64,000 bases of DNA from Microcoleus sp. FACHB-68 (GTDB lineage Bacteria > Cyanobacteriota > Cyanobacteriia > Cyanobacteriales > Oscillatoriaceae), in contig NZ_JACJOT010000018.1 in the NCBI RefSeq assembly GCF_014695715.1, positions 310,001-374,000 of the forward strand, given 5' to 3'. Of this stretch, positions 9,768 through 58,304 are shown in pieces. Under the pieces are notes generated by a model, which did not search any database, had not been told where the DNA came from, and worked only from the letters and a program-made list of their open reading frames with translations. The position numbers and the translations under genes were made by a program. Numbering within the stretch: position 1 is the stretch's first letter; each line of letters opens with the position of its first letter.

Positions 9768-9845
9768 GATACCGGCAGTAAACTAATTCTTATACCTTAG
9801 TGCTTGAAGAGTCGCGTGAGAGCTGACGCAAAAGGAGACGCCCAG

Positions 9846-24639: not shown

Positions 24640-24824
24640 CTGGCAGTGCCGGTGGCGCATCACAAATGCGATGTTTCGGGTTAGCCAGCTTTCCAGGGCA
24701 GGGCAGACACTCAGCGAGGTAGAGGGTATTGGAGAATCTCTGGAAAGCCGGTTATCTTGTTGAATATTATGACAACAGTTTTGTTTTAAGAAGACAGCAA
24801 GTGGCTCAGCACACGGTAGGGGCT

Positions 24825-27800: not shown

Positions 27801-30785
27801 GGGCTTGTTCTCTGCGGCGTTGTGGGCGATATTGAAGCCGGCTTTAAATTTGGTCAGCTTGCTTTAAATATATTGGCACGGTTCAACGCGATAGAATTAA
27901 AAGCTAGAATTTTCCAAATCGTTAATAGCTTTATCACCCATTGGAAGAAGGCAGTGAATGAAACATTGCCCCCCTTGCTAGAAGCTTATCAAAGTGGGCT
28001 GGAAACCGGCGATTTACAGTATGCTGCTTATTCGGCTTATGTTTACTGCTCCCGCGCTTATTTTAGTGGCCGGGATTTAGCAGTTTTTGAGAAAGAGATC
28101 GCGTCTTACAATGAAGCAATTTATCAACTCAAACAGGCAACGGCTCTTAACTATAATCAAATTTACGAGCAGGTGGTCTTAAACTTAACAAATTCCTCGG
28201 AAATTCCTTGGCGTTTAATGGGTAAAAGTTATAACGAGGAAACGAGGTTGCCGCTTCATCAGCAAGCAAATGATAGCACTGCTATGTGCGTGTTATATAT
28301 CAATAAACTTATTTTATGTTATTTATTTTATGAATACCGGCAAGCATTTGATAATGCCATTCTGGCAGAAAAATATATCGGAGGCGTTACCTCCACGATG
28401 CCGTATACGGTTTTCCACCTATACGATTCTTTGGCTCGAATTAGCGTATTAAATGAAGCCACGGAATCTGAAAAAAAGCGTCTTTGGCAAAAGGTGAACG
28501 CCAACCAAAAAAAGATGAAAAAGTGGGCGCATCATGCCCCAATGAATTATTTGCATAAATTTTATTTAGTAGAGGCAGAGCGCTGCCGGTTTCTCAGACG
28601 AAATGTGGAAGCAATGGACTATTATGATCGCGCCATTGCCCTCGCGAAAGAACATCAGTATATCAATGAAGAAGCGCTGGCTAACGAACTCGCAGCCAAA
28701 TTTTACTTCTCACAAGGCAAAGAAAAGCTAGCACAAGTTTATCTGACTGAAGCCTATTACTGCTACGCACGCTGGGGAGCTAAGGCAAAAATTGAAGACT
28801 TAGAAAAACGCTATCCTCAATTACTTGGCTTTATTTTTAATCGGAAAACAACTTTAAATAAAGGCGAGACAGTCTCTCAAATGACGGTAGGAACAATTAG
28901 CTCCTCCGGCACAGGTGTTTCAGAAGCTTTGGATCTGGCAACCGTTATTAAAGCCTCCCAAGCTCTCGCTAAGGAAATTCAACTCGATAACTTGCTTTCA
29001 AGTTTAATGCAAGTTGCTATCGAAAATGCCGGCGCTGAAAAAGGCGCTCTTATTCTGCAAAAATCCGGAGAGTTTTTGATAGAAGCGCAGGGAATTTGTG
29101 GACAATCTTTAGAAGCGGATTTAGCAGAGCAGGTGAAGCCGGCAACAGACAGCGCACAGGCAAAATCTACGCTAACTGTACTGCAATCAATTCCCCTTGA
29201 GTCTTGCCAAGAAATTCCGATTGCGCTGATCAATTATGTTTCGCGCACTCAAGAAACGCTCGTGCTTGATAATGCTGTAACAGAGAAAAATTTTGCAGCC
29301 GATCCTTATATCATTGAACATCAACCCAAATCAGTTTTATGCGTTCCTATTTTAACTCAAAATAAATTAATTGGGATTCTTTACTTAGAAAATAATTTAA
29401 CAACGGGTGCCTTTACTCCTGACAGATTGGAAGTGTTAAAAATTTTATCTTCCCAAGCTGCAATCTCTATTGAAAATGCCCAACTTTATTTAGCCGTTAA
29501 GGAAAGTGAGAGCCGGCTAACTCAATTTTTAGAAGCGCTGCCGGTGGGGGTGGGAATACTGGATAGCAGCGGCAAAGTTTACTATACCAATCGTACGGCT
29601 CAGCAGTTATTGGGTAAAGGCGTTATCCCGGAAACCACCAGCGAGAAAATTCCAGAAGTTTATAAAATTTGTATAGCCGGCACCAATCAGCAATATCCCG
29701 CTGAGCAATTGGCGGTTGTACGTGCCTTGAAAGGCGAAAGTGTGACAAATGCTGATATGGAAATTCATCTAGGCGATAAAATTATTCCCTTAGAAACTTG
29801 GGGAACGCCTATTTATGATGAAAAGGGCAATATTTCCTATGCGATTGTCGCCTTTCAAGACATTACAGAACGTAAAAAAGCAGAAGCAGAGCGAGCAAGA
29901 TTTACTGAGGAACTTGCTCAACTGAATTGCGATTTGAAACAAGCATTGGAGGTTGAATTAGAATTAACCGATGCAGCAGGACGTTTTGTGCCAAATGAAT
30001 TTTTATCTTTTCTGGGATATGAAAGTATTGTTGATGCTAAATTAGGCGATGCGGTGCAGAAGGAGATGTCGGTTTTATTTTCTGATATTCGTGATTTCAC
30101 CACACTTTCAGAAAGTATGACTCCGGAAAATAATTTTAAGTTTATCAATTCCTATCTTTCTCGCATGGAGCCGGTAATCATCGAAAATAATGGATTTATT
30201 GATAAATATATTGGCGATGCAATTATGGCTCTGTTTAGCGGCGGAGCAGATGATGCTGTGAAAGCAGCGATTTCGATGCTGCGCCGGCTTGTCACATACA
30301 ATCAACATCGGACATCTGTTGGCTATCTACCAATTCAGATTGGAATTGGCATCAACACCGGCTCTTTGATGTTGGGCACTGTTGGAGGACAAAATCGGAT
30401 GGATGGCACGGTGATCGGAGATGCAGTGAATTTAGCTTCTCGGATTGAGGGACTAACCAAAAATTATGGGGTATCGCTATTAATCACTCACCATACTTTT
30501 ATGGGTTTAGAAAATCCTGCTGATTATTGCTTTCGCGTCATTGATCGGGTAAAAGTTAAGGGCAAATCAGAAATGGTGTCAGTTTTTGAAATCTTTGATG
30601 CCGATCCGCCTGAAATTAAAGAAGCGAAGTTAGCGACAAAAACAGTGTTTGAACAAGCTTTAATATTCTACTATTTGCAAAATTTTAGTGAGGCAGCACA
30701 ATGCTTTCAAGATTGCTTGCGGATTAATCCACTGGATAAAGTGATTAAAACATATTTGGATCGGTGCCGGCAGCAAATCGTCTAG
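24825..30785 (+). CDS. Ser/Thr kinase-AAA ATPase-GAF-PAS-nucleotide cyclase fusion
   Basis: This is a 1986-residue cytosolic signalling protein. Order by approximate residue: protein kinase (5-270; VIKLLK, HKDIKPQN near 143, DFS near 164 instead of DFG, YMSPEQTGR, D(F)YSLG); AAA_16-type ATPase (Walker A GFSGIGKTA near 345, Walker B VIFLDDLQWAD near 470); a helical TPR-like region (700-1340); GAF (1368-1555); PAS (1560-1685) ending in FQDITERKK; class III cyclase (1746-1920); and a short TPR-like tail (FEQALIFYYLQNFSEAAQCF). The cyclase keeps both metal Asp residues (LFSDIRDF, YIGDAIM), the Lys of IDKYIGDA and the Asn/Arg of DAVNLASRIE, so it should be active, most likely on ATP. The family start VTLPGYRVTEKI fixes the ATG at 24825. 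The glycine-poor P-loop and DFS are usual in this cyanobacterial kinase family. It would couple phosphorylation to cyclic nucleotide; substrates are unknown. Confidence 0.93.
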   Translation: MVTLPGYRVTEKIYDGSRTLVYRALRDSDRTPVVIKLLKTDYPTFTELVQFRNQYTIAKNLNLPGIVQPISLESYRNSFALIMEDFGGISLKEYVTHLRENCLNDSFLDQAKDCALSLPMGEFLNIAVAIVRTLEGLYHNRIIHKDIKPQNILINPETKQVKIIDFSISSLLPRETQEIQNPNVLEGTLAYMSPEQTGRMNRGIDYRTDFYSLGVTFYELLSGQLPFQSSDPMELVHCHIARQPAPAIELNPAIPQMVNDIIMKLMAKTAEDRYQSAFGLRYDLEICLQQWETTGSISQFTLGQRDISDRFFISEQLYGREAEVKALLAAFERVSKGTTEMMLVAGFSGIGKTAVVNEVHKPIVRQRGYFISGKFDQFKRNIPFSALVQAFQNLMGQLLTESAGSLQEWKAKILSALGENAQVIIDVIPQLEKIIGQQPALPELAPAAAQNRFNLLFGKFIRIFTIKEHPLVIFLDDLQWADSASLKLMQLLMTEAMAGGTPVSQHLLVIGAYRDNEVSPAHPLMLTLEEMRSAGAKVNQITLAPLDGNHINCLIADTLSCPSERALPLTALVLNKTKGNPFFTNQFLKSLYQDGLISFDFNYGYWQCDIAKVTALTVSDDVVEFMALQLKKLPDATQAVLKLAACIGNSFDLATLAIVREKSLVETATDLWKALQEGLVLPISEVYKFFQETDNISALKAINLKDNLSAGSDTESKGAVLYKFLHDRVQQAAYFLIPETEKQATHLKIGQLLLSGTPVKEQEEKIFDIVNQLNIGAGLISAQTKRDELAQLNLIAGRKAKASTAYNAAVRYLTAAIELLAADSWKSQYELTLALYVEAAEAAYLNTDFEGMEQLVQMVLQQAKTVLDRVKVYEVKMLACVARNQLIETVKIGLQVLKLLEVNLPENPTKLNVILGLLKTKRALFGKRIEDLINLPEMTDPTKLAAMRILSTASTSAYFAVPTLLPLIVFKQINLSLKYGNASSSAYAYVGYGLVLCGVVGDIEAGFKFGQLALNILARFNAIELKARIFQIVNSFITHWKKAVNETLPPLLEAYQSGLETGDLQYAAYSAYVYCSRAYFSGRDLAVFEKEIASYNEAIYQLKQATALNYNQIYEQVVLNLTNSSEIPWRLMGKSYNEETRLPLHQQANDSTAMCVLYINKLILCYLFYEYRQAFDNAILAEKYIGGVTSTMPYTVFHLYDSLARISVLNEATESEKKRLWQKVNANQKKMKKWAHHAPMNYLHKFYLVEAERCRFLRRNVEAMDYYDRAIALAKEHQYINEEALANELAAKFYFSQGKEKLAQVYLTEAYYCYARWGAKAKIEDLEKRYPQLLGFIFNRKTTLNKGETVSQMTVGTISSSGTGVSEALDLATVIKASQALAKEIQLDNLLSSLMQVAIENAGAEKGALILQKSGEFLIEAQGICGQSLEADLAEQVKPATDSAQAKSTLTVLQSIPLESCQEIPIALINYVSRTQETLVLDNAVTEKNFAADPYIIEHQPKSVLCVPILTQNKLIGILYLENNLTTGAFTPDRLEVLKILSSQAAISIENAQLYLAVKESESRLTQFLEALPVGVGILDSSGKVYYTNRTAQQLLGKGVIPETTSEKIPEVYKICIAGTNQQYPAEQLAVVRALKGESVTNADMEIHLGDKIIPLETWGTPIYDEKGNISYAIVAFQDITERKKAEAERARFTEELAQLNCDLKQALEVELELTDAAGRFVPNEFLSFLGYESIVDAKLGDAVQKEMSVLFSDIRDFTTLSESMTPENNFKFINSYLSRMEPVIIENNGFIDKYIGDAIMALFSGGADDAVKAAISMLRRLVTYNQHRTSVGYLPIQIGIGINTGSLMLGTVGGQNRMDGTVIGDAVNLASRIEGLTKNYGVSLLITHHTFMGLENPADYCFRVIDRVKVKGKSEMVSVFEIFDADPPEIKEAKLATKTVFEQALIFYYLQNFSEAAQCFQDCLRINPLDKVIKTYLDRCRQQIV

Positions 30786-44747: not shown

Positions 44748-47468
44748 TCACTCGGTGACAGTTTTCCGCTCGCTCACTTCAGCCGGCAGGTAAACTGTAA
44801 AAGTTGAGCCAACATCCACCTCACTGCTAACAGTAATTTCGCCGCCCATCATGTGGCAGAAGCGCTGGCTGATAGCCAACCCCAAGCCGGTGCCGCCATA
44901 CTTGCGTGTGGTGGATGGATCTGCTTGGGTGAACGCCTCAAAGATAGTCTGTAACTGCTCTGGGGGGATGCCGATGCCGGTGTCGGTGACGGTAAAAGTC
45001 ACAAATGCTTTGTGCCGGCTGCTCAGTGGGAGAGCCGTTGAGGGAGTGAGGGAAGCAATGGTAGAATTCCCCTGACGCTCTGGCTTTTGGTTGCTGCTAA
45101 CTGTTAAAGTAATTGTGCCATTTTCGGTAAATTTAGCAGCATTGCTGAGCAGGTTTAAAAGGATCTGGCGCACTTTGGTGAGATCGGCGTGCATCATTAA
45201 GCCGGCATCACAGGAAATTTCTAGGGTGTTATTATTTTTCTCGACAAGCGGCTGAATTGTGTTCACCAAATTTTCAACCAGGGTAGGAAGATCGATGGTT
45301 TCCACATAAAGATTCATCCGACCGGCTTCTATCTTAGAAATATCCAGAATATCGTTAATTAAAGCGAGCAAATGGTTGCCGGCACCTCGAATTTTTTCCA
45401 AATCCGGGTTAATCTCCCCATAGCCTAAATCGTCGGCTTCTTCTTGCAGCATCTCGCTATAGCCGATAATCGCATTCAGCGGCGTGCGGAGTTCATGACT
45501 AATATTAGCCAGAAACACGCTTTTCGCTTGATTTGCGGCTGCACTTCGCGCCGCTTCACGAACGGCAACTTCTTTAGCCTGTTGTAATTGCGCTTCAGTA
45601 CACTGGCGCTGTAGGGCGTTGGCGAGCATTTCCGCAACCATTTTAAGCAGCGCAATGCTTTCTTGCGGCCAAGTTTTTTCCGACGCCACCGAATCAAAGC
45701 CGACAAATCCCATTAAAGATCGACCACAAACCATTGGCACCACAACCAGCGATTGGATGCTTTGCGCGCTCAAATGTTCTTTTTCAGCAGTCGCTTCAGC
45801 CGGCAAATCGGCCACTCTTGGAATATAAATGTTCTCAAATTGGCGGAGTTTTGTCATCAACCACGGCAACGCGGTTATCGGCACTTCTTGCAAAGCAGAT
45901 ATTTGCGATTGGATGCCGGTGGCGCACCACTCGTGAGTATTGTCAAGATAAATTTTGTCATCGTTGAATTGAAAAATATAACAGCGATCCACACCGGCAA
46001 AGGTGGCAATCACTTCGAGGGCGTGATTGATGCCGGTGTCCATTTCATCTGGGGCTAAATTAATAAAATTCGTTGATAGCGTGGTGAGCAATTGTTCAAA
46101 CTCAATGCGATACTGCAAAGACTCTTCTGCCTGCTTGCGATCTGTAATGTCATTGAGCGTTCCGAAGGTGCCAGTCAGCCGGTTTTCCTGATCTCGAATA
46201 AATTGGGTATTGACCTCAATCCAACGAACCCCGCCGTCTTTTGTTAAATAGCGCATTTGATCGCGGCAGGAGTCGTCTTGAAGTTCAATCGGCTTCTGGA
46301 AATATTCTTGCCGTTGTTGATGATCGTGTGGGTGAACGTAATTAAAGAAATGAGTGCCAATACTTTCTTGGCGTGTGTAGCCGGTGATTTCTGTCCACGC
46401 CGGGTTGAGAAAGGTGAAAAAACCCAGCGCGTCAGTTTGAAAAATTACCTCCTTGATGTTATCAACTACAGAGCGGTACTTTTCCTCACTTTGCAGCAGT
46501 GCTTCCTCAGCTAGTTTACGCTCACTCATATCACGCACAATCGCCAGAACTTCTGCTTCTCCACTGACCACAATCCGAGCCTCATAATCGCAGCGGTGAC
46601 CATTGAGTAGCAACTGATATTCAAAGATTTGTACCTCACCCGTTGCCAAGGCTTGCTCGGCATAGTAGACACACGCTTGAGCGACTGCCGGCGGCAAAAC
46701 TCCCCGCACATTTTTTCCTAAGAATTCTCGTTCTATCAATAGGGAAAAATTAGTTCCTTTCGCAGCTTTAAAGTCTAGAAAAGTGCCTTCTTTGCTAAGG
46801 CGAAACATTAAATCTGGAATTGCGTTAATGAGAGCGCGATTGTTGGCTTCGCTTCGTGTCAGTGAGATTTCTGCTCGTTTGCGCTCTGTAATGTCAAAAA
46901 ATACGAGAACTGCACCCACCGGCACGTTATTTTCAACGATTGGATTCAATACATAAGACACCGGCAACATTGTGCCATCCCGACGCCGAAAACATCCTTC
47001 CCGGTTACCAGAGATTGACCCTGAAGCTAATATTCCTGGGGCGCACTCTGGCGCGTCTTGTAAAGACAAAGGCGATGGCGTTTCTACCAATTCTAAAAAC
47101 TGTTTACCGATTAGTTCAGATTCTAGCCACCCTAGAAGACGTTCGCCTTCTGGATTAATTGACTGCAAGCAGCCGGCAGGATCAAGCAGGCACAAACCGG
47201 CCTCCAAGGAACTGATCACCGCCCTCAGCTGGTTTCGCTCTGCCGAGATCCTCGCATCATGGGATTGCTGTAAATTTGTGTAAAGTTGTTGCATCTGGCC
47301 GCACGTACTGGCTAGCGAGTGGGCCAGCATACAGCGCTGTTGGTCAGCTTGGGTGTAAGTGCGACTCACCGACGTTAAAAATTGTTGCCATGCTTCGGCA
47401 TCTTGAGGTGGGGACGCCTCTAGGATGCCGAGTTTTTTCAGTTGACGCTTCAGGAGATGATGAATCAT
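44748..47468 (-). CDS. PAS-PAS-PAS-GAF sensor histidine kinase
   Basis: This is a 906-residue soluble kinase. The order is an N-terminal helical region (1-75), PAS 1 (80-195; ends FFDITERKRAE), PAS 2 (205-320; RDMSERKLAE), PAS 3 (325-450; [11 protein letters not shown]), GAF (455-625), HisKA with [19 protein letters not shown] (His near 657), and HATPase with [25 protein letters not shown] and [12 protein letters not shown]. There is no membrane segment and no receiver, so it must pass phosphate to a separate regulator. The receivers encoded just upstream on the same strand (47646 and 49654) are the obvious candidates. The kinase core is nearly the same as those of the two hybrid kinases upstream, which suggests duplication within this block. 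Confidence 0.93.
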   Translation of the reverse strand: MIHHLLKRQLKKLGILEASPPQDAEAWQQFLTSVSRTYTQADQQRCMLAHSLASTCGQMQQLYTNLQQSHDARISAERNQLRAVISSLEAGLCLLDPAGCLQSINPEGERLLGWLESELIGKQFLELVETPSPLSLQDAPECAPGILASGSISGNREGCFRRRDGTMLPVSYVLNPIVENNVPVGAVLVFFDITERKRAEISLTRSEANNRALINAIPDLMFRLSKEGTFLDFKAAKGTNFSLLIEREFLGKNVRGVLPPAVAQACVYYAEQALATGEVQIFEYQLLLNGHRCDYEARIVVSGEAEVLAIVRDMSERKLAEEALLQSEEKYRSVVDNIKEVIFQTDALGFFTFLNPAWTEITGYTRQESIGTHFFNYVHPHDHQQRQEYFQKPIELQDDSCRDQMRYLTKDGGVRWIEVNTQFIRDQENRLTGTFGTLNDITDRKQAEESLQYRIEFEQLLTTLSTNFINLAPDEMDTGINHALEVIATFAGVDRCYIFQFNDDKIYLDNTHEWCATGIQSQISALQEVPITALPWLMTKLRQFENIYIPRVADLPAEATAEKEHLSAQSIQSLVVVPMVCGRSLMGFVGFDSVASEKTWPQESIALLKMVAEMLANALQRQCTEAQLQQAKEVAVREAARSAAANQAKSVFLANISHELRTPLNAIIGYSEMLQEEADDLGYGEINPDLEKIRGAGNHLLALINDILDISKIEAGRMNLYVETIDLPTLVENLVNTIQPLVEKNNNTLEISCDAGLMMHADLTKVRQILLNLLSNAAKFTENGTITLTVSSNQKPERQGNSTIASLTPSTALPLSSRHKAFVTFTVTDTGIGIPPEQLQTIFEAFTQADPSTTRKYGGTGLGLAISQRFCHMMGGEITVSSEVDVGSTFTVYLPAEVSERKTVTE

Positions 47469-47602
47469 TCGAGTGCTGTTTCAAAGAAGGTTGTCAGTAT
47501 CACTATTTGGCTATGCCATTCGTAGCTAAGAGACGCTTAAAAGCGTAGCTGAGGGTTAATCATTAAAATTTTCCCCAAATCCCCAGTTGGCTGCACCCTG
47601 TG

Positions 47603-47642
47603 TCTAATCTCTAGTCTCTAGTCTCCAGTTCCTAGTCTCTAG
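47603..47642. repeat. CTAGTCT-type heptanucleotide tandem repeat (STRR)
   Basis: Five full seven-base units (tctaatc, tctagtc, tctagtc, tccagtt, cctagtc) and a partial sixth lie just after the cyclase stop. It is a third heptamer class in this window. Confidence 0.85.
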
Positions 47643-47645
47643 CTT

Positions 47646-48704
47646 CTACGATTGTCTGTCGAGGAGCAAATACGTCCTCATCTCTCCTTTACCTTTGACA
47701 TCAATTAAACCGCGATCCTCAAATTTATAACGCTCGCGGAGTCGCTCATAAGTGGCAGTGGTCACCTGAATTTTGCCGATAATTCCCTGTGATTCCATGC
47801 GGCTGGCAATATTAACGGTGTCACCCCATAAATCGTAAGTAAATTTGTGGGTGCCAATCACGCCGGCAACAACGGGTCCTGTGTTAATTCCAATGCGAAT
47901 ACTAAACGGTTGTTCGCGCTGGGTGTTAAATTGAGCGATAGCCTGCTGCATATCCAGCGCCATCTCAGCAATCGCGATGGCGTGATCGGGTGTTGGCACC
48001 GGCAGCCCACCGACTACCATATAAGCGTCGCCAATCGTTTTGATCTTCTCTAAGCCGTGTTGTTCAGCCAGCCGGTCAAATGTTGAAAAAATATCGTTGA
48101 GCAAATTAACGAGGTCTGTGGGAGATACTTGAGCTGAAAGCTTTGTAAAGTCAACGATGTCGGCAAACAAAACAGTGACTTCTGCGAAACTGTCGGCAAT
48201 TGTATTCCAGCCCTGTTTCAGCTTCTCAGCAATGGCTTTGGGCAAGATATTGAGCAGCAGACGTTCAGATTTTTCCTGTTCAGCTTGCAATTGTTTTAAA
48301 AAAGCTTGTTCTTGATCGCGCAAGCGTTTCTTTTCCAGACAGGCACTAATGCGGGCTTTGAGCAATACGGGGTTGAAAGGCTTGGTTAAGTAGTCTTCTG
48401 CCCCCAACTCAATGCACTTGACGACACTATCTAGGTCGTCTACTGCCGAGATCATAATCACTGGAATATGCCGCAGGGATGAGTCTGCTTTGAGCTGCTC
48501 AAGCACCTGATAGCCATTCATTTTTGGCATCATGATGTCGAGGAGTACCAAGTCGAACGGCTGCGCTTGCATCAGCTCTAGCGCTTGAGAGCCATCTTCG
48601 GCAACGGTTACGGTATAACCGTGCCGTTTTAACCGGCGTCCGAGCAAATCGCGGTTCGCTTCAATATCATCAACTACCAGCACGGCAGCTTGGTCGAGGG
48701 TCAT
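47646..48704 (-). CDS. Response regulator with adenylate cyclase output
   Basis: This is a 352-residue protein. Receiver (1-125): VVDDIEANRDLL, LVLLDIMMPKMNG, MISAVD, YLTKPF. A coiled-coil linker (about 130-165, KKRLRDQEQAFLKQLQAEQEKSERLLLNILP in two halves) leads to a class III cyclase (175-345). Cyclase residues are metal Asp in LFADIVDF and IGDAYM, substrate Lys in EKIKTIGD, substrate Asp in FTYDLWGD, and transition-state Asn/Arg in VNIASRMES. Lys-Asp predicts ATP as substrate, so phosphorylation should control cAMP. Its start overlaps by four bases (ATGA) a small upstream ORF. It is surrounded by sensor kinases on the same strand. Confidence 0.93.
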   Translation of the reverse strand: MTLDQAAVLVVDDIEANRDLLGRRLKRHGYTVTVAEDGSQALELMQAQPFDLVLLDIMMPKMNGYQVLEQLKADSSLRHIPVIMISAVDDLDSVVKCIELGAEDYLTKPFNPVLLKARISACLEKKRLRDQEQAFLKQLQAEQEKSERLLLNILPKAIAEKLKQGWNTIADSFAEVTVLFADIVDFTKLSAQVSPTDLVNLLNDIFSTFDRLAEQHGLEKIKTIGDAYMVVGGLPVPTPDHAIAIAEMALDMQQAIAQFNTQREQPFSIRIGINTGPVVAGVIGTHKFTYDLWGDTVNIASRMESQGIIGKIQVTTATYERLRERYKFEDRGLIDVKGKGEMRTYLLLDRQS

Positions 48705-48859
48705 GGCATGGCCTCTTTGTTTTTGAGCGCCTGAATCTTCAGCGGCGCGGGAATGCCTTGGGTGGCGTTGATCGCTGGGTATCCAGGATCGGGTTTTCCT
48801 CGCGCTTGCAGAGAAATCGGATTTCTATTTATATCTTGAACTAGCTGGATGCGTGGCAT
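48701..48859 (-). CDS. Candidate 52-residue protein coupled to the cyclase gene
   Basis: A short frame (MPRIQLVQDINRNPISLQAR..., ending KIQALKNKEAMP) stops at a TGA that overlaps the cyclase ATG by four bases, the classic coupling arrangement. A GGA lies about ten bases before its ATG. It has no recognisable domain and is rich in Pro, Ile and Gln. It could be a leader that couples translation or a small partner of the cyclase. Support is arrangement only. Confidence 0.4.
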   Translation of the reverse strand: MPRIQLVQDINRNPISLQARGKPDPGYPAINATQGIPAPLKIQALKNKEAMP

Positions 48860-49415
48860 AAGTGTTCTGTCCGTAATGTTTGCCTTTTGTGGTTTGGCCT
48901 CCTTCGCTGGCAGAGCAGTGAGTGTTGCCGGCAGCTTACTTAAGAATTTGTGAGATTACAAATGCTTTTCCTATCGGGGGATTGCTCAAACTTCGATTTT
49001 GGGGAGGGTGAGTGAGAATCGCTTGACATCGCAAGCATTTCCTTTAACCCATTTAATCGAGTCAACGCTGTCAAGACAAAAGAAATTTGAAAATTAAAAT
49101 ATCCAGTTGTTACTAAGGCGTTTTATTTCTTACTATTTTATCAATTTCTCCTTTTTTTAAATAATTAAAAATCTGGAAATAAAGCCGATTATTAAATAAA
49201 TTTTTCATGGCAACTCCCTGCAAATCAAAATCTAAAACAATAAATAAGTTTAAGCTAATTAATATTCCATCAATCCAACCCAGCTTTTTACAAAAGTTGC
49301 ATACTTTTAAATAAGATAAGAGAAATTGAGCATTTATAAAGAGTTAAATTTGGCAAAATTACCACACCGGCAGCTCTCTGTTTTCCATGTAAGTACGAGC
49401 GTGAATCGGTCTAAC
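48860..49415. other. AT-rich intergenic region in the signalling block
   Basis: The part from about 49080 to 49350 is strongly AT-rich and has no frame I would call coding. No RNA gene was recognised. The promoter for the cyclase transcript is expected here, near 48880-48960. Confidence 0.45.
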
Positions 49416-49657
49416 TTATTGTGTCACTCGCTGGCGTGAATGTAAAACCTTTAGCATTTGCAAAATCTTGAGTTTGTTGTCCTCCATTGTTTTGGTAATC
49501 GACTCCATGAGATAGAAAAAAGAAGAGAACAGCCGTTGAGATCCCCCCACTTGTTTTTTGCACGTCTCGCTTGCCTGGAGGCATGAACGCGTTCCCAAAG
49601 GCCGGCAGATTGAGAGCGACCTAGATTTTCACTTTTTACTTCTTTCTGTTGTGTCAT
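49416..49657 (-). pseudogene. Possible frameshifted small gene downstream of the receiver
   Basis: An ATG overlapping the receiver stop (ATGA at 49654-49657) opens a frame MTQQKEVKSENLG...ASRQARRAKNKWGDL. It then loses protein-like character, while the next frame reads LFSSFFYLMESITKTMEDNK followed by KLKILQMLKVLHSRQRVTQ to a stop at 49416. Joining them needs one frameshift near 49545. It is either a decayed or mis-sequenced gene, or chance frames. Confidence 0.25.
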
Positions 49658-50031
49658 GCTTTGGCTGCTTTGTCCAGAAGTGCCTCTATTTTGCCCAGAA
49701 GCCGGACAAATTCCACGGGTTTGGTGTCATAATCGTCGCATCCGGCATCCAAACACTTTTCCCGATCACCGGCTATTGCGTGAGCTGTTAAGGCAATCAC
49801 TGGAATCGCGCTGGTTGTCGGGATTGCTTTAATTTGCTGGGTTGCCTGCCAACCGTCCAACACCGGCAACCCCATATCCATCAAAATCAAGTCGGGAGCT
49901 TCAGATTTGGCCATTTCCACACCTTGAGCACCATCTGTTGCGATCACAACTTCGTACCCTTTACGAATCAGACGCCGTGAAAGCATATCGCGATTCATCT
50001 CGTTATCTTCAACCAGCAAAATTTTAGTCAT
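49654..50031 (-). CDS. Single-domain response regulator
   Basis: This is a 125-residue receiver with no output domain. Conserved residues are present: ILLVEDNEMNRDML, DLILMDMGLPVLDG (phosphoacceptor Asp), IALTAHA (Thr) and DTKPV (Lys). Such proteins serve as phosphate shuttles or bind a partner directly. It lies between the membrane hybrid kinase (50130) and the cyclase regulator, in the same orientation, and is a likely shared phosphate carrier for the block. Confidence 0.93.
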   Translation of the reverse strand: MTKILLVEDNEMNRDMLSRRLIRKGYEVVIATDGAQGVEMAKSEAPDLILMDMGLPVLDGWQATQQIKAIPTTSAIPVIALTAHAIAGDREKCLDAGCDDYDTKPVEFVRLLGKIEALLDKAAKA

Positions 50032-50129
50032 CTTTCGTTTACCTAGTAGCAGTTCCAGGATCAGCCAGAAGTATGAACAATGGCTTTCGCAATTCTTAAT
50101 TCTTAATTGTCAATTCTTCTGGTTAATAA

Positions 50130-53100
50130 CTACTGCCCTCTGCGATCAATGCTGGTGGTTAATAAATCGCGAACTTCGCCCAACAAATCTTCGTAACTGC
50201 AAGCTCCTTTTTGAAGAATTAGCTCAACGTTTTCGGTGAGGTACTGCCGTTCTACCGGCGTGAGTTCCATCGCCGTCAGCACCACAACCGGCACGGATCG
50301 CCCGGCTAGAGTGCGGCGTAGTTCTGTGATGAACTCAAATCCGTCCATTTTCGGCAGCATCAGGTCTAATAAAATTAAGTTTGGCTGGCTTTGAGCAAGC
50401 AAGCCGACTGCGTCACTTCCACTTTCGGCTTCAGTGACACTCCAACCTTCTTTTTCTAATAGGTTCCGTAGCATTTGCCTTTGCATGGTGTCGCCAGTGA
50501 TCATCAAAATTTGACCGGCACTGCCGGCACTATTGTGCAAACGTCCATATCGCTTTAACAACTCAACTAGGCGCTTATATTCAACCGGCTTGGTTAAATA
50601 ATCTGACGCCCCTAAAGCGAAACCAATCTTTTGGTTGTCCGCAATTGTCAGCACAATCACGGGAATATCCGCAAGTTCGGGATCGGATTTGAGCGCTGCC
50701 AACACCGCCCACCCATCCATATCGGGCATCATAACATCGAGGGTGATGGCGGCAGGACGCAGTGCTTTGGCTAACTGTAACCCGTCCTTGCCGCTGCCGG
50801 CACTGGCAATGCCAAACCCTTGTTTAACTAAATGACGCTCTAGTAAATCACGCACGGCTGGATCATCATCAATCACCAGTACCAAGGGAAGTGATGAGGG
50901 TTCACTGCTGACAGAAAGCGTTTCTACCCGTTTCCCCGTCTCCCCCTCTCCTCCTCTCAAACGCTCAACAGGGACAGACGCAGCCGCGAGATCGACCACT
51001 TGTGCCGGCAGGCGCACGGTGAAAGTCGAACCAACTCCCACTTGGCTTTCTACATTAATCTCGCCCCCCATCATCTGGCAAAAGTGGCGGGTAATTGCCA
51101 ATCCCAAGCCGGTGCCGCCGTATTTGCGCGTGGTGGAGGCATCGGCTTGGGTAAAGGGTTGAAAGACTTTTTCCAACTGCTCTGAACTCATGCCGATGCC
51201 GGTGTCTCGGACGCTAAAAACAATCAAAGATTCAGGGTTCACAACGTCCGATTCCCGCGATCCCTGTTTCCCTTCACGAGTCACTGTCAGGGTAATTTGG
51301 CCACTTTCGGTGAATTTGGCGGCATTGCTTAGCAAGTTTAAGAGTATTTGCCGCACTTTCGTGAGATCGGCGTGCATGGTGGCTGTTTGGGGTGATCCCT
51401 CACCTTGAGTATGTAACCCCAAAATTTCTACCGTGTTACTGTTTTTCTCAATCAGCGGGCCGGCAGTGCTGACAACCTCATCAATTAAAGCTTCAATATT
51501 AAACGTTTCTAGGCAAAGTTCCATTCTGCCGGCCTCAATTTTCGAGATATCAAGGATGTCGTTAATTAAGGCAAGCAGATGTTTGCCGGCAGCATGAATT
51601 TTCTGCAAGTCCGGAACAAACTCTTCAGTTCCCAAATCCTCAGCGTCTTCTTGAAGCATCTCGCTATAGCCGATGATGGCATTGAGCGGTGTTCGCAACT
51701 CGTGGCTGATATTGGCAAGAAACTTGCTCTTGGCAGTATTGGCAGCTTCCGCAACTTCTTTAGCCCGCTGCAGGTGTTCCTCGGCTTGCTTGCGTTCCAA
51801 TTCGGAGGCAGCACGCATCGCAAAAATTCGCAGCATAGAGGCAGCGAGTTGGGTGTTTGATAGGGGTTTGGCGCTGAGTACGACTAAAATGCCTAGGGGA
51901 GAGCCGGCACTATCAAACAGAGGCGCTCCCATATACCCCTCAACTCCCATTTCAACGAGTAATTGATCGCAAGGAAATTGCTGGTGAACGCTTTGGGGAT
52001 AGCAGCACAGCTGTTTTCCCACGATGTTTTCGCAAGGGGTACCGGCCAAACTGTACTTGAAATTATCAGCAATCTCGCCGTTAGCGCAGGCGGCGATCGT
52101 TTCGACGCTAGTGCCTTGTTTATCTAACTCACCGATAAAAGCCCAGTCTACCTCTAAGGTTCTGGCTAGATATTGCACTAAAGAGCGGAAAAATGCTTCT
52201 CCCGTTGCTGCCGAAACGCCTTCAGCGATATTTCGCAATGCCTGTTCTGTCCATTTGCGTTCGGAAATGTCGCGCACGATTGCCAGCATCCGATCTTTCC
52301 CTCTCAGGGGAACCCGTTTGAGGTTGATTTCTACCCAGATCGGTTGGCCCGCCTTGTTTTGACACAGCCATTCAAAGAGCTGAGGTTCACCGGCTGCTGC
52401 TTTAATCACCCACTGCCGTGCCCGTTTTTTGGTATAGGGGGGTTGATCGCCACTTAAAACGTCTAGATTTAAGGTTCTGGCTTCTTCAGCGCTATAGCCG
52501 AAAAGCTCGCACATTTTCTCGTTTACATCAAGGATCATGCCGGTTTCCCAATCATGAACCACAATTGCGTCTGTGGCGCTGTCAAAAATCGCCCGGTAAT
52601 TGGTCTCGGACATTCTCAACGCTTGTTCTGCTTGCTTGCGTTCGGTGATGTCGCGGGTAATTGTCAGCAGGCACTGTTCTCCGCCTAAGTTGATCACTTC
52701 TGCGGAGAACAGTCCCACGTGAATCGCACCGGCTTTTGTCCGAAATTCGATTTCTTGGTTAGTAACAGCGCCGTGTTGTTGAAAACTTTTCAGCATTTGG
52801 GCGCGTTGCTGTGGATGAACCCAGATGTTGCGTTCTGCTGAAGTGTAGCCAATGAGCTCTTGCCGGTTGTAGCCGGTGATTCGCAGGAAACTGTCATTGA
52901 CTTCAATAAAACGCCCTTCTGTCAGGGTGCTAATTGTGATGGCATCGGGACTGGCAAGAAAGGCTTTGGAGAACTTTTCTTCAGAGTTCGACAGTGCTTG
53001 TGCAGTCAGTCGTTTCAGATGGCGCACGAGGATATAGGCAAGAACGCCGGTGGACACTAGCAGCAACCCACCCCCAATTTGCCACCACTGAGCCGGCAAT

Positions 53101-53363
53101 AAGCTTAAGCTGATCAAGTTTGGCAGTGTTACCCACTGAAGCGCATAAGCGGAAATACAAGCAGCCAAACCAGGCGTCAGAAATTGCGGTGAGTCTAAAG
53201 CACTTTCTAGTCGGGCGCGAGAGCTTTTCTGATACTGGAGTTTTAATTGATAATTTTCTTGACAAAATCGCTGTTGTTCTAACTGATAGAATGCCCAAAC
53301 GGCGGCTAGAATCAAACAAGCTCCTGACACCCCTGCCAAGTCATGCGGAAGCTGGAATTTCAT
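50130..53363 (-). CDS. Membrane hybrid histidine kinase with two receivers
   Basis: This is a 1077-residue protein. Hydrophobic segments lie near residues 8-26, 65-90 and 95-115 ([29 protein letters not shown]). PAS 1 (about 140-255) and PAS 2 (265-380) are followed by GAF (385-545), HisKA ([19 protein letters not shown], His near 553), HATPase ([22 protein letters not shown]), receiver 1 (about 826-940; [24 protein letters not shown]) and receiver 2 (about 951-1070). Receiver 2 keeps [13 protein letters not shown] but has MITGDT where VEDDS is expected, so its Mg-binding acids are lost. The linker between ATPase and receiver 1 is coded by C-rich repeat-like DNA. The ATG at 53363 has GGGAAAG upstream; an in-frame start at 53411 is less likely. 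Confidence 0.93.
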
Positions 53364-53619
53364 GGCTTTACTTTCCCTACCAATAGCCCAAACCGCTGGC
53401 ACTTTCCACAAGTATCAGCGCCGGCTGCCTTTGCAATAATCTTAAGCGCGTTCGTCCTTACTGTGAACAACAAGCTTTGCTACACCGGCATTGCTCGGTT
53501 GTTAGCAAGCGCAACGCTTCCTATTAAAGAATTATCGACTTAGCTGTAGAAGGAAATTAATTCAAAAACAGAAAAGGTAAAAAAATTTAAGTTTCTTTTC
53601 CTTTTCTTGGTTTTAATTT

Positions 53620-56600
53620 TCACAGTTTATCGGGCAAGCTTGCCATGAGGAGATCACGGACTTGATGCAGCAGTTCCTCACAGGTGTGCGCTCCTTTTTG
53701 GAGAATCTGCTCAACACAACCATTGAGAAATTGATAATCTGCCGGCGTTAAATCCATTGCCGTAACAACCACAATCGGAAGGGTTCGCGTCTGGGGATTG
53801 TTGCGTAATTTAGTAATCACCTCAAACCCATCCATCTGGGGCATCATTAAATCTAACAAAATTAAGTCTGGACAATTTTCAGCAACCCGATCTAAAGCTG
53901 CCCGTCCATTTTCCGCTTCAGTGACATTCCAACCCTCTCTTTGTAAAGTCCGTCGCAGCATTTCGCGGGTGACAGAATCATCTTCAACAATCAGAATTTG
54001 ACCGGCCCGATCTTGCCGGTATTTGCGTAATAAACTAAGAAGGCGATTGCGATCAATCGGTTTAGTTAGAAAATCTGAGGCACCCAAGGCAAAGCCAAGA
54101 TTTTTATGATCCATAATTGTGGCAACAATCACCGGCACATCTGCCAGATCCGGATCAGCTTTGAGGGTTGCCAACACCGCCCAGCCATTCATTCCCTGCA
54201 TCAGCACATCCAGTACGATCGCGGCTGGGTGCAGTTCTTTTGCCAGCTGCAACCCGATCTCGCCGGTGGCTGCTGTCTCAATGCGAAAGCCTTCTTTTAA
54301 CAGCCGGCGTTCAATTAAATCGCACACGGCTGGATCGTCGTCAATCACTAGCACTAGAGGGCGGGTTGGGGGTTCACTCTTGACAGAAAGTTTTTCTCCC
54401 CCTTTCTTCTCCCCCTCTCCCTCCTTCTCAACTATTACTTTTTGGACACCGGCATCTGTCACCTTTGCCGGCAGGCGTACGGTGAAAGTCGAACCCACTC
54501 CCTCTTGGCTTTCTACATTAATCTCGCCCCCCATCATCTGGCAAAAGTGGCGCGTAATTGCCAATCCTAAGCCGGTGCCGCCGTATTTGCGCGTGGTGGA
54601 GGCGTCGGCTTGGGTAAAGGGTTGAAACACTTTTTCCACTTGTTCTGGACTCATGCCGATGCCGGTGTCGCTGACGCTAAAAACGATCAAGGATTGGGAA
54701 TTAGGTGTTGCCAATTCTCTGGTTACTGAAATGGAAATTGTGCCGTTTTCCGTAAATTTGGCGGCGTTGCTCAGGAGGTTAAAAAGTACCTGTCTCACCT
54801 TGGTCATATCGGCGTGCATGATGCCAATTTTACGGTCGGACTGTACGTTTAAGTTATTGTTATTTTTCTCGATAACGGGCTGAATTGTGGCAGCAATTTC
54901 CATGATCAATCCCCCAACATCAAAGGGTTCTAAATAAAGCTCCATCCGACCCGCTTCAATTTTAGAAATATCGAGAATATCGTTAATTAAATTGAGTTGA
55001 TGTTTGCCGGCAGCCCGAATTTTCTCTAAATCTGGAACGATATCTGTATAGCCAAAATCCTCGGCTTCTTCTTGCAGCATTTCGCTATAACCAATGATCG
55101 CATTCAGCGGGGTTCGCAACTCATGACTCATGTTCGCCAGAAACGTACTTTTGGCTCGGTTTGCGGCTTCTGCGGCTTCCTTTGCCTTGCGTAACTCTTC
55201 TGCTGCTAGTTTACGCTCGGTGATATCTTCTACCATGCCTTCATAGTAGAGGATATTGCCGGTGTTATCGCGTACCACCCGGGCGTTTTCAGAAATCCAA
55301 ATGATGCTACCGTCTGTGCGATAAACCTCAGATTTAAACCCAAAAACAGCCTCATTTTCTGCCATTTGTGCTATAAATTCTGCACGGCGGTTGGGCTGTA
55401 CATATAACTGCCGATCAATGTCTGTGAGTTGATCCATCAATTCTGCCGGCGTGGCATAACCATAAAGTCTTGCCAATGCAGGATTTGCACTTAAGTATCG
55501 CCCCTCTGGGGTTGTTTGAAAAATTCCATCAACCGCATTTTCAAAAATGCTGCGATATTTCGCCTCAGCTTGTTTGAGTGCCTCCACGGCTTGCTTACGT
55601 TGAATGACTGTTCCCAGCTGCGTTGCCACGGCTAAAACCAATTCAACTAATCGTTTATTCTCTTGGCGAGAAGCAAACATAAAGAAAATCAGAATGGCGA
55701 CAACCTGGTTATCAGCAATAATAGGAACGCCAAGCGCGCATTTAAGCCCAACAATTTGCGCTAAAGGAGCGCGTAAAAATATGGTTTCTTTTTGGGTAGA
55801 AACATTTGGAATCCATTCGGGCTGCTGTGACATCCAAATTCGCCCAGGCAACCAAATGCCGGGAGGAAACGTTAGCCCTTCACTCAGGGATCTAAACTCT
55901 TGTAATCTTTCGCTATTGCTATACCACGCCGGACTGCATTCTAGCACTGTCCCCCCAGAGGCGGGAACCCAAGCTTCTCCATAATTCCAACCCGTTGCTT
56001 CACAGACTTTTGTCAGCGCCACACCTAAGGCTGAGTGAAAATCTGGAGCTTCATTAATTGCTTGCATCATGGTCTGCAAAAGACGAATTTCATCTTCTGC
56101 TTGCTTGCGATCAGTGATATCTCGAAATGTGCCGATATAAAAGGTTGTGGTAACGGGTTGGCGACTTTTTTTGGAGGTTTTTTGCTGTTTCTCGATTGAT
56201 TCGGTGATAATAACTTCCATTGGAAAAGTTGAATTATCTGCCCGCCGGCCTAAAGTTGAGAAGGGAGCGTTAAAAATTGAAAAGGGAAAAATTTTGCTAT
56301 TTTCAATTTCTGCTGTTTCTAGCTGTGTTCCGAACAGTTGGGCGATAGATTGCTCTCTAATTTCCTCTTCTTTATAGCCAAATATATTCTCGGCAGCGGG
56401 GTTTAAGCTGAGGATTCGCCCTTGTTGGGAAAAGGTGATAATTCCATCCATAGAGCTTTTAACAATGGCTTCTGTGCGGGCGATCTCGCCTTCTAGGGCT
56501 TCCATAACGCGGTTATACCGGCAGGCTATCTGGCCAACTTCTGTGAAGGGTTCCACCGGCACTCTCACACTCAGATTGCCTGTTTTTGATTGCTGATCCA

Positions 56601-57843
56601 TCACCATATAAAGTTCTAACAAATCGGTTTTAGCTCCATGTTCGGAAATATTAAGTCCAATGCGTTCTTGAGTGCGGGTAACGCGCAGTGGTAAGAAGCG
56701 ATTAATCAGCCGCAGCAGCATAAAACTCAGACCAAATGCCCAGATAAAACACGCAAAAATACCGAGAAGTTGCATTTGAATTTGCCCGAAACGATCCAAT
56801 CCTGTCCCCAAAAGCTGGGTGTTGCCAAATAAGGCAACGGCTAGGGTTCCCCAAATGCCGGCTCCTAAATGAACGGGAATCACGCCGACTGCATCATCGA
56901 TTTTGAGGCGTTCGAGTAAAGATTCGGTTGCTAGCATGACGATGCTGCCGACTGCGCCGATAATCAGGGCTGAGCCGGTGCTGACGGCATCGCAGCTGGC
57001 GGTGATGGCGACTAAGCCGGCTAAAGAACCGTTCATGACTGAGTTAACATCGGCACGCTGGTATTTGAAATAACCGGCAAAAAGGGCTGCAATCTGACCG
57101 GCAGCGCCGGCAAGCACGGTGTTTAGGATGATGATGGGAACGCGTTCATTAAAGGCGAAGGTGCTGCCGCCATTGAAGCCAAACCAACCAAACCACAGCA
57201 GCAGGGTTCCCAGCAGTGCGAGGGGAACGTTGGCACCGGCAATTTTTCTGGGGGGTCGATTTTTGGGAAACCGGCCCATACGAGGGCCAATAATTAGAAT
57301 TGCAGCGAGGGAAATCCAGCCGCCAACACTGTGAACGACGGTTGAGCCGGCAAAATCGACGAAGCCTAAATTGGCTAGCCACCCTGCCGGTGTCCCCACA
57401 TCGGCACCATTCCAGATCCAGTGGCTAAATACAGGATAGATAAAACCTGAAACCAGCGCCGCCATTAAGATATAGCTGCTAAAGCGCATTCGTTCTGCGA
57501 CTGCCCCAGAAATCAGCGTGACTGCGGTTGAGCAGAACATTAATTGAAAGATAAAAAAGGCTGTCTCTCTCATCCCGACAGCACTTTCATCGATTGCGAA
57601 ATTTGGGATAAAGCCGGTTGTGCCTATCCAGCCACCCCAAGAGTGGCCAAACATCAGGGCGTAGCCGAACGCCCAAAACAGGACAGCACAGACGCCGAAA
57701 TCGGTTAAATTTTTAATCGCAACATTAATATTATTTTTGCTGCGCGTCAGCCCAGATTCCAGGCATAAAAATCCAGCCTGCATTAAAAAAATCAGGCTGC
57801 TACTGACTATAAGCCATAGAAGATCGACCATTGAGCTGTCCAT
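53620..57843 (-). CDS. Ammonium transporter-histidine kinase fusion with two receivers
   Basis: This is a 1407-residue protein. Residues 1-395 are a full Amt/MEP/Rh domain with about 11 helices. It keeps the pore residues of E. coli AmtB: the Phe pair in [10 protein letters not shown], Asp and His in [17 protein letters not shown] in [11 protein letters not shown], and the second His in VIPVHLGAG. After a HAMP-like linker (405-455) come PAS (460-580), GAF (585-745), PAS (750-880), HisKA ([19 protein letters not shown], His near 907), HATPase ([22 protein letters not shown]), receiver 1 (IDDDPAVCD...[11 protein letters not shown]...LTKPI) and receiver 2 (VEDDSV...[11 protein letters not shown]...LQKGA). 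Amt-kinase fusions such as Kuenenia Amt5 are known ammonium sensors; by that precedent this should sense external ammonium. It is the first gene of the block and is preceded by an 800-base non-coding region. Confidence 0.95.
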
Positions 57844-58304
57844 CCCCGACTTTCCCCTCTATTACAATGAAAGTTGTAAATTCAAAAATTAGTTGAATAA
57901 TTTCAATTTTCTCTGCTATTTTCTTTTTAAAAGCTATTTTCAGGGTTTTTCAGTATTTTTTACAAATTTATATAGATTTTATAAATTACTAATAAGTTTG
58001 ACATTTTTTTATTTAAAAAGAAGCGGCTATTTTAGGCTTGGGACTTAAAAAAGTAAAACAGACAAATCTGATTCTGTGGTCGAGTGCCAATAAAATAACC
58101 TGACTTGCGGCAGTGTTATACCGGCTAATTACTCCTTAAAAAGAGCTAATTGAAGGTAAAAATCCCTGAAGCAAGAGACGGTTGTCGAAAATGCAAATCA
58201 GGACGTATCAAACGCTACTAAATTGCGTTTGGCAAAAACGGATTTTGTTAAGTTAAGCAAGTCTCAGAGGGAGTTATCCGGAAAAGAAGAACACATCCCT
58301 GCTC

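Follow-up and report, generated by a model that had tools for sequence, protein, structure and literature searches.

The analysed window, a 64,000-nucleotide stretch of the genome of Microcoleus sp. FACHB-68, contains five adjacent signalling genes on the minus strand. The open reading frame list and Pfam searches bore out every gene, coordinate, strand and domain that the initial annotation had assigned to this block: an Amt-sensor hybrid histidine kinase, a second hybrid kinase, a lone receiver, a receiver-adenylate cyclase and a third kinase (Table 1).

Table 1 Coordinates (window positions) of the kinase-cyclase block and associated features.
Feature	Position	Strand	Description
Amt-sensor hybrid histidine kinase, 1407 aa	53620..57843	-	Amt, linker, PAS, GAF, PAS, HisKA, HATPase, REC, REC
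Amt domain, residues 9-405	56629..57819	-	PF00909, E 9.4e-122 (Pfam); sensor-type ammonium site
Linker, residues 406-455, directly C-terminal to the Amt domain	56479..56628	-	columns conserved among sensor Amts
HisKA/HATPase core of the Amt-kinase, residues 891-1135	54439..55173	-	Pfam
Two C-terminal receivers of the Amt-kinase, residues 1151-1400	53644..54393	-	acidic and phospho-acceptor residues present, by eye
Second hybrid kinase	50130..53411	-	PAS-PAS-GAF-HisKA-HATPase-REC-REC (Pfam)
Lone receiver, 125 aa	49654..50031	-	Pfam
Spacer, 949 bp, without clear gene	48705..49653	-	between lone receiver and cyclase
Receiver-adenylate cyclase (REC-class III cyclase), 352 aa	47646..48704	-	PF00072 + PF00211 (Pfam)
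Third kinase, without receiver	44748..47468	-	PAS/GAF-HisKA-HATPase (Pfam)
GTA-N8-TAC, NtcA-box-like, upstream of the Amt-kinase	58205..58218	.	lead only

By its residues, the Amt part of the kinase belongs with the sensor Amts (Ks-Amt5 type) and would bind NH4+. It is a complete domain, followed by PAS, GAF, HisKA, HATPase and REC domains as the cytoplasmic signalling part (Pfam), and its predicted ammonium site consists of Q22, E29, N45, D48, T109 and S112, a set (QENDTS) shared at the six positions by 144 of 151 sensor Amts and by none of the 8 transporter Amts. Compared with the Ks-Amt5 site (Q24, E31, N47, D50, T51, T109, T112), the window protein has S for T112 and F49 for T51. The nearest solved structures were 8qj3 and 8qpf (416.8 and 416.7 bits), followed by Ks-Amt5 6eu6 (318.5 bits), with lower scores for the transporters Af-Amt1 (201.1) and AmtB (152). 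On the FastTree phylogeny, sensor rows separated from the 8 transporters with a support of 92, subject to a long-branch warning for the transporters, and the six operon-type Amts grouped with a support of only 46, again with long-branch warnings; L131 and L156, which are cut inside the Amt domain, were left out of both tree and site counts.

The pore nevertheless leaves room for a transceptor, in which the Amt domain still transports and the attached kinase responds to flux instead of to occupancy of the site, with cAMP following uptake: the window protein retains every pore residue examined (the twin histidines, the Phe gate, W144, S227, D163), and of the bulky residues closing the Ks-Amt5 pore (F27, Y30, F34) only the first is matched (F25), while L28 and L32 differ. 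For Ks-Amt5 itself, electrophysiology is reported to show a displacement of charge with no translocation. The distribution of the site residues, the split on the tree and the presence of two further, separate Amts of ordinary length in the same genome speak against this possibility, which we regard as improbable. Likewise, the Amt of genus member G002 carries two changed site residues (D48N and S112F), as would be expected if the domain were a decaying sensor in this lineage, with ammonium unsensed and the block answering its PAS/GAF inputs only. However, the full site is retained in the window and in G001, and the G002 frame is open along its whole length, making decay very unlikely.

The residues of the cyclase argue for an intact, adenylate-specific enzyme. 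Class III adenylate cyclases use two metal-binding Asp, an adenine-specifying Lys/Asp pair and transition-state Asn/Arg, and the window protein retains all six (D D K D N R), including the adenylate-specifying pair. The same set occurred in 13/13 REC-cyclase rows, 10 of them distinct, with duplicate records among the rows (L177 = L034, L178 = L111, L189 = L124, L181 = L043, L253 = L109). Cut or split rows, namely L139 (cyclase-bearing), the first copy of L217, L225, L141 and L127, stand outside the change count; a separate cyclase ORF follows both the first copy of L217 and L225. As the genome encodes 35 class III cyclase domains, proximity of Amt and cyclase in a single genome alone would prove little. 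Among the receivers, the second one of the second hybrid kinase has an altered acidic pocket. Pfam detected no HPt domain in the five proteins, and the 10 found in the genome all lie outside the window's contig; a phosphorelay of the ArcB/TorS kind was rejected for this reason, and direct transfer from kinase to receiver is a simpler route than the multi-kinase relay suggested in the initial annotation.

The spacer before the cyclase gene is conserved among the genus members (blastn matches to the window of 88% and 83%), and no homologous gene was found there in ten relatives compared outside the genus. A 52-aa ORF (48701-48859) overlapping the cyclase start is present genus-wide; outside the genus only its last 26 residues match, corresponding to the upstream part of the longer L036/L037 cyclase frame. 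Searches of the window for structured RNA gave no Rfam match at gathering scores, and promoter and terminator scans stayed near chance (21 vs 17.0 and 18 vs 18.4). The GTA-N8-TAC motif upstream of the Amt-kinase, which we take to be NtcA-box-like, is identical in all three genus members, with no clear -10 element seen downstream; given 3 such sites in the window vs 4.75 in shuffles, NtcA control was set aside and the site kept as a lead.

Conservation of gene order in other genomes, proposed as a check in the initial annotation, was confirmed: G001 and G002 show the entire order as well, so that it is present in all three genus members found, and a block without Amt is wider still, with 4 genomes from 3 sister genera and two further families carrying it (L036-L042; the survey leaves out G007, a 66%-complete sister genome). 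This Amt-less form comprises a related kinase core, a lone receiver 78-89% identical to that of the window, a REC-cyclase and usually another kinase; its first kinase carries PAS and no Amt (6 of 7 loci checked), and in the sister genera of the family (L036-L039) it adjoins dnaK-dnaJ. Since the sister-genus block starts with an Amt-less kinase, the Amt domain is a later addition to a cyclase-linked block that predates it, and because homology to the Amt-less blocks begins at Amt-kinase residues 739-745, the fusion point lies near 740. In another family, Leptolyngbyaceae, three loci (L111, L121, L124) hold a separate Amt-HK-REC-REC adjoining a REC-cyclase at a spacing of 88-217 bp, with cyclase domains 63-70% identical. 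A single clade of the six kinase cores was rejected (p-AU 0.0044), and this second family appears, from the sequences compared, to have joined Amt to a cyclase-linked block separately. A mobile origin was not supported: the whole Amt-kinase searched against plasmids returned 278 records, all below 60% identity and 0 covering 80% of the query, and the 20 matches listed cover the kinase half only.

The history of the three kinases is more complex than first assumed. Their cores are related, as had been noted: compared with the Amt-kinase, identity is about 66% both in the second kinase (66% over residues 875-1403) and in the third (66% over residues 875-1132). The local duplication read from this likeness did not hold, as a single genus-specific origin of the three cores was rejected (p-AU 0.0096), and with it a simple or recent local triplication; the p-values for the 9-core and 6-core groups are somewhat generous, since the groups were set by locus and architecture with the kinase tree already known. 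The third kinase instead falls together with its equivalents from L036, L037 and L039, which lie directly after the cyclase in these three loci, though not in L038, and overlap the cyclase gene in L036 and L037. The second hybrid kinase has no clear counterpart in the blocks of the other genera examined.

Across 388 genomes of the class, four pairs of sensor-Amt and REC-cyclase lay within 10 kb, compared with 0.063 expected by random placement, an expectation that ignores shared ancestry; the window, which prompted the search, is one of the four, two of the other three belong to a single genus, and the count leaves aside a fifth pair, 10.3 kb apart. Together with the conserved order and the fusions described below, this count rules out a chance neighbourhood. 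Only 4/63 REC-cyclases of this kind have a sensor-Amt within 10 kb, so the block would have used several inputs, ammonium among them. Of the sensor-Amt loci examined in the 388 genomes, 15/88 were cyclase-linked (search at E <= 1e-150; 88 of 89 places, the cut gene G095:C104 being left out), a count to be read knowing that linked genes may escape notice at the many loci close to a contig end. The named set consists of the best 80 of 521 and is skewed in favour of the query. Sensor and cyclase also occur in one polypeptide, as Amt-HK-REC-cyclase (14 distinct, in other cyanobacteria) and as Amt-PAS-cyclase (15 distinct, in Trichodesmium, Okeania, Oscillatoria and Laspinema); seven fusions were checked with Pfam, the other domain labels coming from blastp against parts of known proteins. 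In Chloroflexi, receivers of the same two kinds flank some Amt-kinases, with 73% for the lone receiver and 68% for the cyclase-type receiver at L184, and the neighbours comprise a REC-PP2C gene (L184), a stand-alone receiver (L186, L193, L201) or neither (L204, L216); no cyclase adjoins the Amt-kinase at the loci examined. The occurrence of the same receiver kinds on a cyclase in cyanobacteria and on a PP2C-like domain at one Chloroflexi locus suggests how such a block may swap its sensor and its effector.

Taken together, we propose that the block is an ammonium-responsive two-component pathway with cAMP as output (probability about 0.7), for which we infer NH4+ binding, the sign of the response, the phosphotransfer partners and the change in cAMP. 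External ammonium probably controls cAMP through it, and this link, already drawn in the initial annotation, gains strong support from the sensor-type site, the intact cyclase residues and the repeated joining and fusion of Amt and cyclase. External NH4+ would bind the sensor site, and the resulting change would travel through the conserved linker, which is HAMP-like by eye only (Pfam found no HAMP match in the window Amt-kinase, and the matches in L047 and L050 sit further downstream than the linker position). The PAS/GAF/PAS domains would integrate the signal and autophosphorylation of the kinase histidine would be altered, from where phosphate may pass directly, without HPt, to receivers. 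The two receivers that the Amt-kinase itself carries would take phosphate, perhaps serving as sink or filter, and phosphate arriving at the conserved receiver of the cyclase protein would change cyclase activity. The lone receiver, together with the other two kinases, may share or tune phosphate and add other signals.

Counted against this pathway were the G002 site changes, the spacer, the retained pore residues, the cyclase-free Chloroflexi loci, the 35 cyclase domains of the genome and the REC-cyclases, which mostly have no sensor-Amt nearby and thus are not dedicated to ammonium. Several of these would fit an arrangement in which the Amt-kinase senses ammonium and mainly targets the receivers it carries and the lone receiver, a regulator that works through protein contact, while the third kinase and other signals drive the REC-cyclase and the shared locus reflects history: the Amt-less block is the wider one, its third kinase can overlap the cyclase gene, 949 bp part the cyclase from the Amt-kinase genes, cyclases of this kind usually stand apart from sensor-Amts, and similar Chloroflexi Amt-kinases, some beside receivers, have no cyclase nearby. 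We consider this arrangement unlikely, albeit the most serious alternative, as the second family has an Amt-kinase directly adjoining the same kind of REC-cyclase and recurring Amt-cyclase fusions are poorly explained by historical accident.

The proposed ammonium-cAMP pathway shares parts with several known systems. The cyanobacterial CyaC (Kasahara and Ohmori, 1999) is a receiver-kinase-receiver-adenylate cyclase and is not known to carry an Amt. As in that protein, a class III adenylate cyclase would be controlled from kinase to receiver, here through a receiver fused to the cyclase; in CyaC, however, kinase and cyclase share a polypeptide, as in the Amt-HK-REC-cyclase relatives, whereas the window encodes them separately. 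Those fusions carry the K/T substrate pair of class IIIb in place of the K/D pair of the window cyclase. The closest solved structure by sequence, 8qj3/8qpf, with the same site residues in the alignment, is what we take to be Sd-Amt1 of Shewanella denitrificans, an Amt-HAMP-diguanylate cyclase. In Sd-Amt1 a HAMP domain lies between Amt and output, and the output is c-di-GMP, whereas the window block would produce cAMP via kinase and receiver. Ks-Amt5 of Kuenenia stuttgartiensis (PMC5764959) likewise joins Amt to a HisKA-type kinase and has the ammonium-site residues largely in common (Q, E, N, D, T; S for T), but has no HAMP, no PAS and, as described, no receivers, in contrast to the linker, PAS/GAF domains, two receivers and block-encoded adenylate cyclase found here; its response regulator was not identified in that paper. 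The Amt-less HK-REC-REC, lone REC and REC-cyclase block (L036-L042) resembles the window block minus its Amt sensor.

Beyond the genus, we lean towards the view that control of cAMP by external ammonium through sensor-Amts is widespread and repeatedly evolved in cyanobacteria, and built in at least four ways. These four are the kinase/REC-cyclase block of the genus, the block of the Leptolyngbyaceae family, Amt-HK-REC-cyclase proteins, and Amt-PAS-cyclase proteins of cyanobacteria that form blooms and mats, Trichodesmium and Okeania among them. Diguanylate cyclase is another output of a sensor-Amt (Sd-Amt1). With the kinase output already published (Ks-Amt5), cAMP would join the outputs of sensor-type Amts. 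In Anabaena species, limitation for nitrogen or nitrate is reported to raise the cAMP level of the cells (reviewed in PMC4284465); in the main text of that review words beginning with 'ammoni' are absent, and its passages on the subject name no sensor for the nitrogen effect. If our view is right, sensor-Amt receptors could be a missing sensor behind the effect of nitrogen supply on cyanobacterial cAMP, and a receptor combining ammonium sensor and adenylate cyclase would make the nitrogen-cAMP question directly testable in culturable filamentous cyanobacteria. The fusions in Trichodesmium MAGs would, moreover, put an ammonium-cAMP switch in a major marine nitrogen fixer.

The five genes lie on one strand between dnaJ/dnaK and surE (flank names assigned by eye) in a genome of 6.5 Mb and 19 contigs, and the description and coordinates given by the initial annotation proved correct in both gene positions and Pfam domains (see table); the block is a real finding. 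Its gene order extends beyond this strain, as the same five genes and flanks were found in G001 and G002, both other genus members found, while the nearest named relative among the best 80 of 521 matches is the MAG 'Microcoleus vaginatus WJT46-NPBG5' (L177; 91% identity over the Amt query). Between the lone receiver and the cyclase lies a genus-conserved spacer of 949 bp in which no clear gene was detected. The second hybrid kinase has an altered acidic pocket in its second receiver (ITGD vs VEDD in the Amt-kinase; identical in 3/3 genus members), and so may retain phosphate or work only partly.

Features of the block, in transcription order, and of its surroundings (positions in the window unless a contig is named)
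Feature	Position	Strand	Length	Content	Basis
Gene 1, Amt-kinase		minus	1407 aa	Amt-PAS-GAF-PAS-HisKA-HATPase-REC-REC	Pfam
Gene 2, second hybrid kinase	50130-53411	minus	1093 aa	PAS-PAS-GAF-HisKA-HATPase-REC-REC	Pfam
Gene 3		minus	125 aa	lone receiver	Pfam
Gene 4		minus	352 aa	receiver-cyclase	Pfam
Gene 5, third kinase		minus	906 aa	PAS/GAF-HisKA-HATPase without receiver	Pfam
Whole window	G000:C18:310001-374000
ORF	1098-1565		155 aa	transposase-fragment-like	by eye
Large protein	9804-17348		2514 aa	two kinase cores, two receivers, many PAS repeats	by eye
Large protein	24729-30785		2018 aa	Ser/Thr kinase start (by eye), class III cyclase-like end
C-terminal part of the 2018-aa protein	G000:C18:340060-340581			cyclase match
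Loci L262/L263, outside the window	G000:C8:1475001-1500000	one strand		run of five class III cyclase genes (domains 69-74% identical to the window's), four with a PAS domain resembling that preceding the Amt-kinase core

Judged by its matches, the Amt part of the first kinase is a sensor-type Amt. In comparisons with solved structures it scored 416.8 and 416.7 bits with 8qj3 and 8qpf, which we take to be Sd-Amt1, an Amt-diguanylate cyclase receptor, then 318.5 bits with Ks-Amt5 (6eu6), and lower with transporters (Af-Amt1, 201.1 bits; AmtB, 152 bits). According to PMC5764959, Ks-Amt5 binds two ammonium ions via Q24, E31, N47, D50, T51, T109 and T112, where the window protein has Q22, E29, N45, D48, F49, T109 and S112. 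With the F49 position omitted, the six-position site reads QENDTS in 144 of 151 sensor Amts, and NENVTS (six) or TYSLAS (two) in eight transporter-type Amts. G002 (L035) reads QENNTF, with D48 and S112 changed in a gene that is open throughout, which is evidence against uniform function. Since all pore residues examined are retained, the window Amt may also transport ammonium; the genome encodes two more Amts of ordinary length. Sensor Amts share a conserved linker behind the Amt domain that is HAMP-like by eye, but Pfam returned no HAMP match in the window Amt-kinase.

At the output end, the cyclase retains both metal Asp residues, the Lys and Asp that specify adenine, as well as the catalytic Asn/Arg pair (roles that we assume from the class III cyclase literature), and is by these residues an intact adenylate cyclase; the set DDKDNR is present in 13/13 REC-cyclase rows (10 distinct). 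The genome's 35 class III cyclase domains and 17 cNMP-binding domains (15 above the family cut-off) make signalling by cAMP plausible here.

The reading of the initial annotation, in which external ammonium is turned into cAMP, is thus far well supported by comparative genomics, through a sensor-type site, a kinase, receivers, an intact cyclase and their linkage. NH4+ would bind at the Amt sensor site and act on the kinase through the linker, altering its autophosphorylation, for which Ks-Amt5 offers a precedent (phosphorylation climbs steeply at low ammonium and drops at high; PMC5764959), and phosphate would pass straight to the cyclase receiver. No HPt domain was found on the window's contig; 10 occur elsewhere in the genome.

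Sensor-Amts were detected at E <= 1e-150 in 69 of 388 genomes of the class, at 89 places, 88 of which were examined. Linkage to a class III cyclase was found in 15/88 loci, a lower bound because many loci stop at contig ends, spread over 15 of the 69 genomes: the window, L111, L121, L124 and eleven fusions of type c, of which L139 leaves its contig within the cyclase; fusions of type d were absent from these 15. Other outputs include histidine kinases, PP2C-type (SpoIIE) phosphatases, GGDEF domains and short tails. On the Amt tree (146 sensor rows, 34 cyclase-linked), cyclase linkage needs six changes. Window-like REC-cyclases occur at 63 places in 57/388 genomes, and 15 genomes hold both partners; pairs within 10 kb numbered 4 vs 0.063 expected under random placement, a count that includes the window, which prompted the search, and two loci of one genus among the other three, and that leaves out a fifth pair at 10.3 kb.

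Beside five sensor-Amt genes (L103, L092, L106, L112, L118) lies a transporter-type Amt gene less than 7 kb away; the distance in L103 is about 170 bp. Such proximity agrees with a role connected to ammonium. Fusions to a SpoIIE phosphatase were labelled in 17 cases (L045, Pfam-checked, L081-L083, L119, L234 and others). Another 24 sensor Amts, some cut at contig ends, were labelled short-tail, with no catalytic domain found (L047-L050, L084, L085, L087-L091, L093, L097, L099, L101, L102, L104 and others); in L047-L050 a gene of ~350-400 aa directly upstream is a possible partner.

Sensor-Amt and cyclase also share one polypeptide in two fusion types. Type c (Amt-linker-HK-REC-cyclase; Pfam-checked in L098, L106, L107 and L118) comprises 14 distinct proteins, one cut at a contig end, with DDKTNR in 14/14 readable rows (13 distinct). 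Type d (Amt-PAS-cyclase; Pfam-checked in L043, L180 and L213) comprises 15 distinct proteins with cyclases 64-74% identical to the window's and DDKDNR in 16/16 rows (15 distinct), in records titled Trichodesmium (MAGs L213, L222), Okeania (L215, L217, L220, L246), Oscillatoria (L192, L195, L196), Laspinema (L187, L190), Phormidium pseudopriestleyi (L197) and MAGs of Oscillatoriales (L180), Oscillatoriaceae (L181, identical to L043) and Microcoleaceae (L241); two more genes appear split (L217 first copy, L225). By eye, the type d proteins of L180, L187, L192, L195-L197, L213, L215, L220, L222, L241 and L246 open with a segment resembling a membrane anchor or signal; the ~70-110 residues between it and the Amt domain may be extracellular.

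Three sister genera (four genomes, L036-L039) have the block at the same site beside dnaK-dnaJ, with a first kinase that carries PAS domains without Amt; in L038 the further kinase precedes the lone receiver instead of following the cyclase. Homology of the Amt-kinase to these first kinases begins at residues 739-745, which suggests that the Amt-linker-PAS-GAF half was joined at that point. The three kinases had been attributed to local duplication, and this does not hold in its simple form: a single clade of the three genus kinase cores was rejected (p-AU 0.0096) and, in the kinase-core tree, the third kinase clusters with counterpart kinases from L036, L037 and L039, so that local duplication would apply at most to an older time. 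The Amt-kinase core falls close to kinases that stand first in the blocks of other genera: it groups with L039_3 (support 88/73; 87/75 in a second tree); a wider group with L036_5, L037_10 and L042_8 (89/82) is absent from the second tree. For the second kinase, none of the blocks examined in other genera offers a clear counterpart.

A second, apparently separate Amt capture is seen in a different family, f48. There L111, L121 and L124 encode Amt-PAS-HK-REC-REC, and a REC-cyclase whose cyclase domain shares 63-70% identity with that of the window cyclase lies 88-217 bp downstream; these loci also hold further hybrid kinases, and L111 and L121 a lone receiver (74%). Two f48 records (L178, L189) are titled uncultured or MAG Leptolyngbyaceae. 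The f48 Amt-kinase cores cluster with neighbours from their own block, and one clade of all six Amt-kinase cores was rejected (p-AU 0.0044). As the Amt domains of the six operon-type proteins group together weakly (support 46, Amt tree), their transfer between the two lineages is possible.

No published account joining an Amt to adenylate cyclase was found among the open-licence PMC papers and passages covered; a subscription paper could exist. PMC10433425 refers to Tremblay and Hallenbeck 2009 for further observed Amt fusions, PMC8534201 and PMC12918730 cite Ks-Amt5, and PMC12918730 and PMC5764959 describe its response regulator as yet to be identified; in the passages covered, the words 'ammonium' and 'Amt' are absent from PMC1183210, and PMC10117731 mentions no cAMP-ammonium sensor. 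According to PMC4284465, cAMP rises on nitrogen starvation in Anabaena variabilis and on nitrate deficiency in A. flos-aquae.

Beyond cyanobacteria, similar Amt-HK-REC-REC genes were found in MAGs whose titles name Chloroflexi, Chloroflexales, Anaerolineales, Anaerolineae and Planctomycetota (L182, L184, L186, L193, L201, L204, L216, L255). Downstream of the Amt-kinase gene in L184 come a lone receiver (73% identity to its window counterpart) and a receiver, 68% identical to that of the cyclase, fused to a PP2C-like domain (26%, blastp); a stand-alone receiver of the cyclase-receiver type (67-74%) lies just upstream in L186, L193 and L201, and neither arrangement was found in L204 and L216. 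Kinase and receivers of these kinds thus appear to recur together with a varying effector, a partnership that fits direct transfer from kinase to receiver. We file the block as a known kind of receptor with what would be a new output for sensor-Amt signalling; as the effector varies among loci, the cyclase output would be one use of the module among others.
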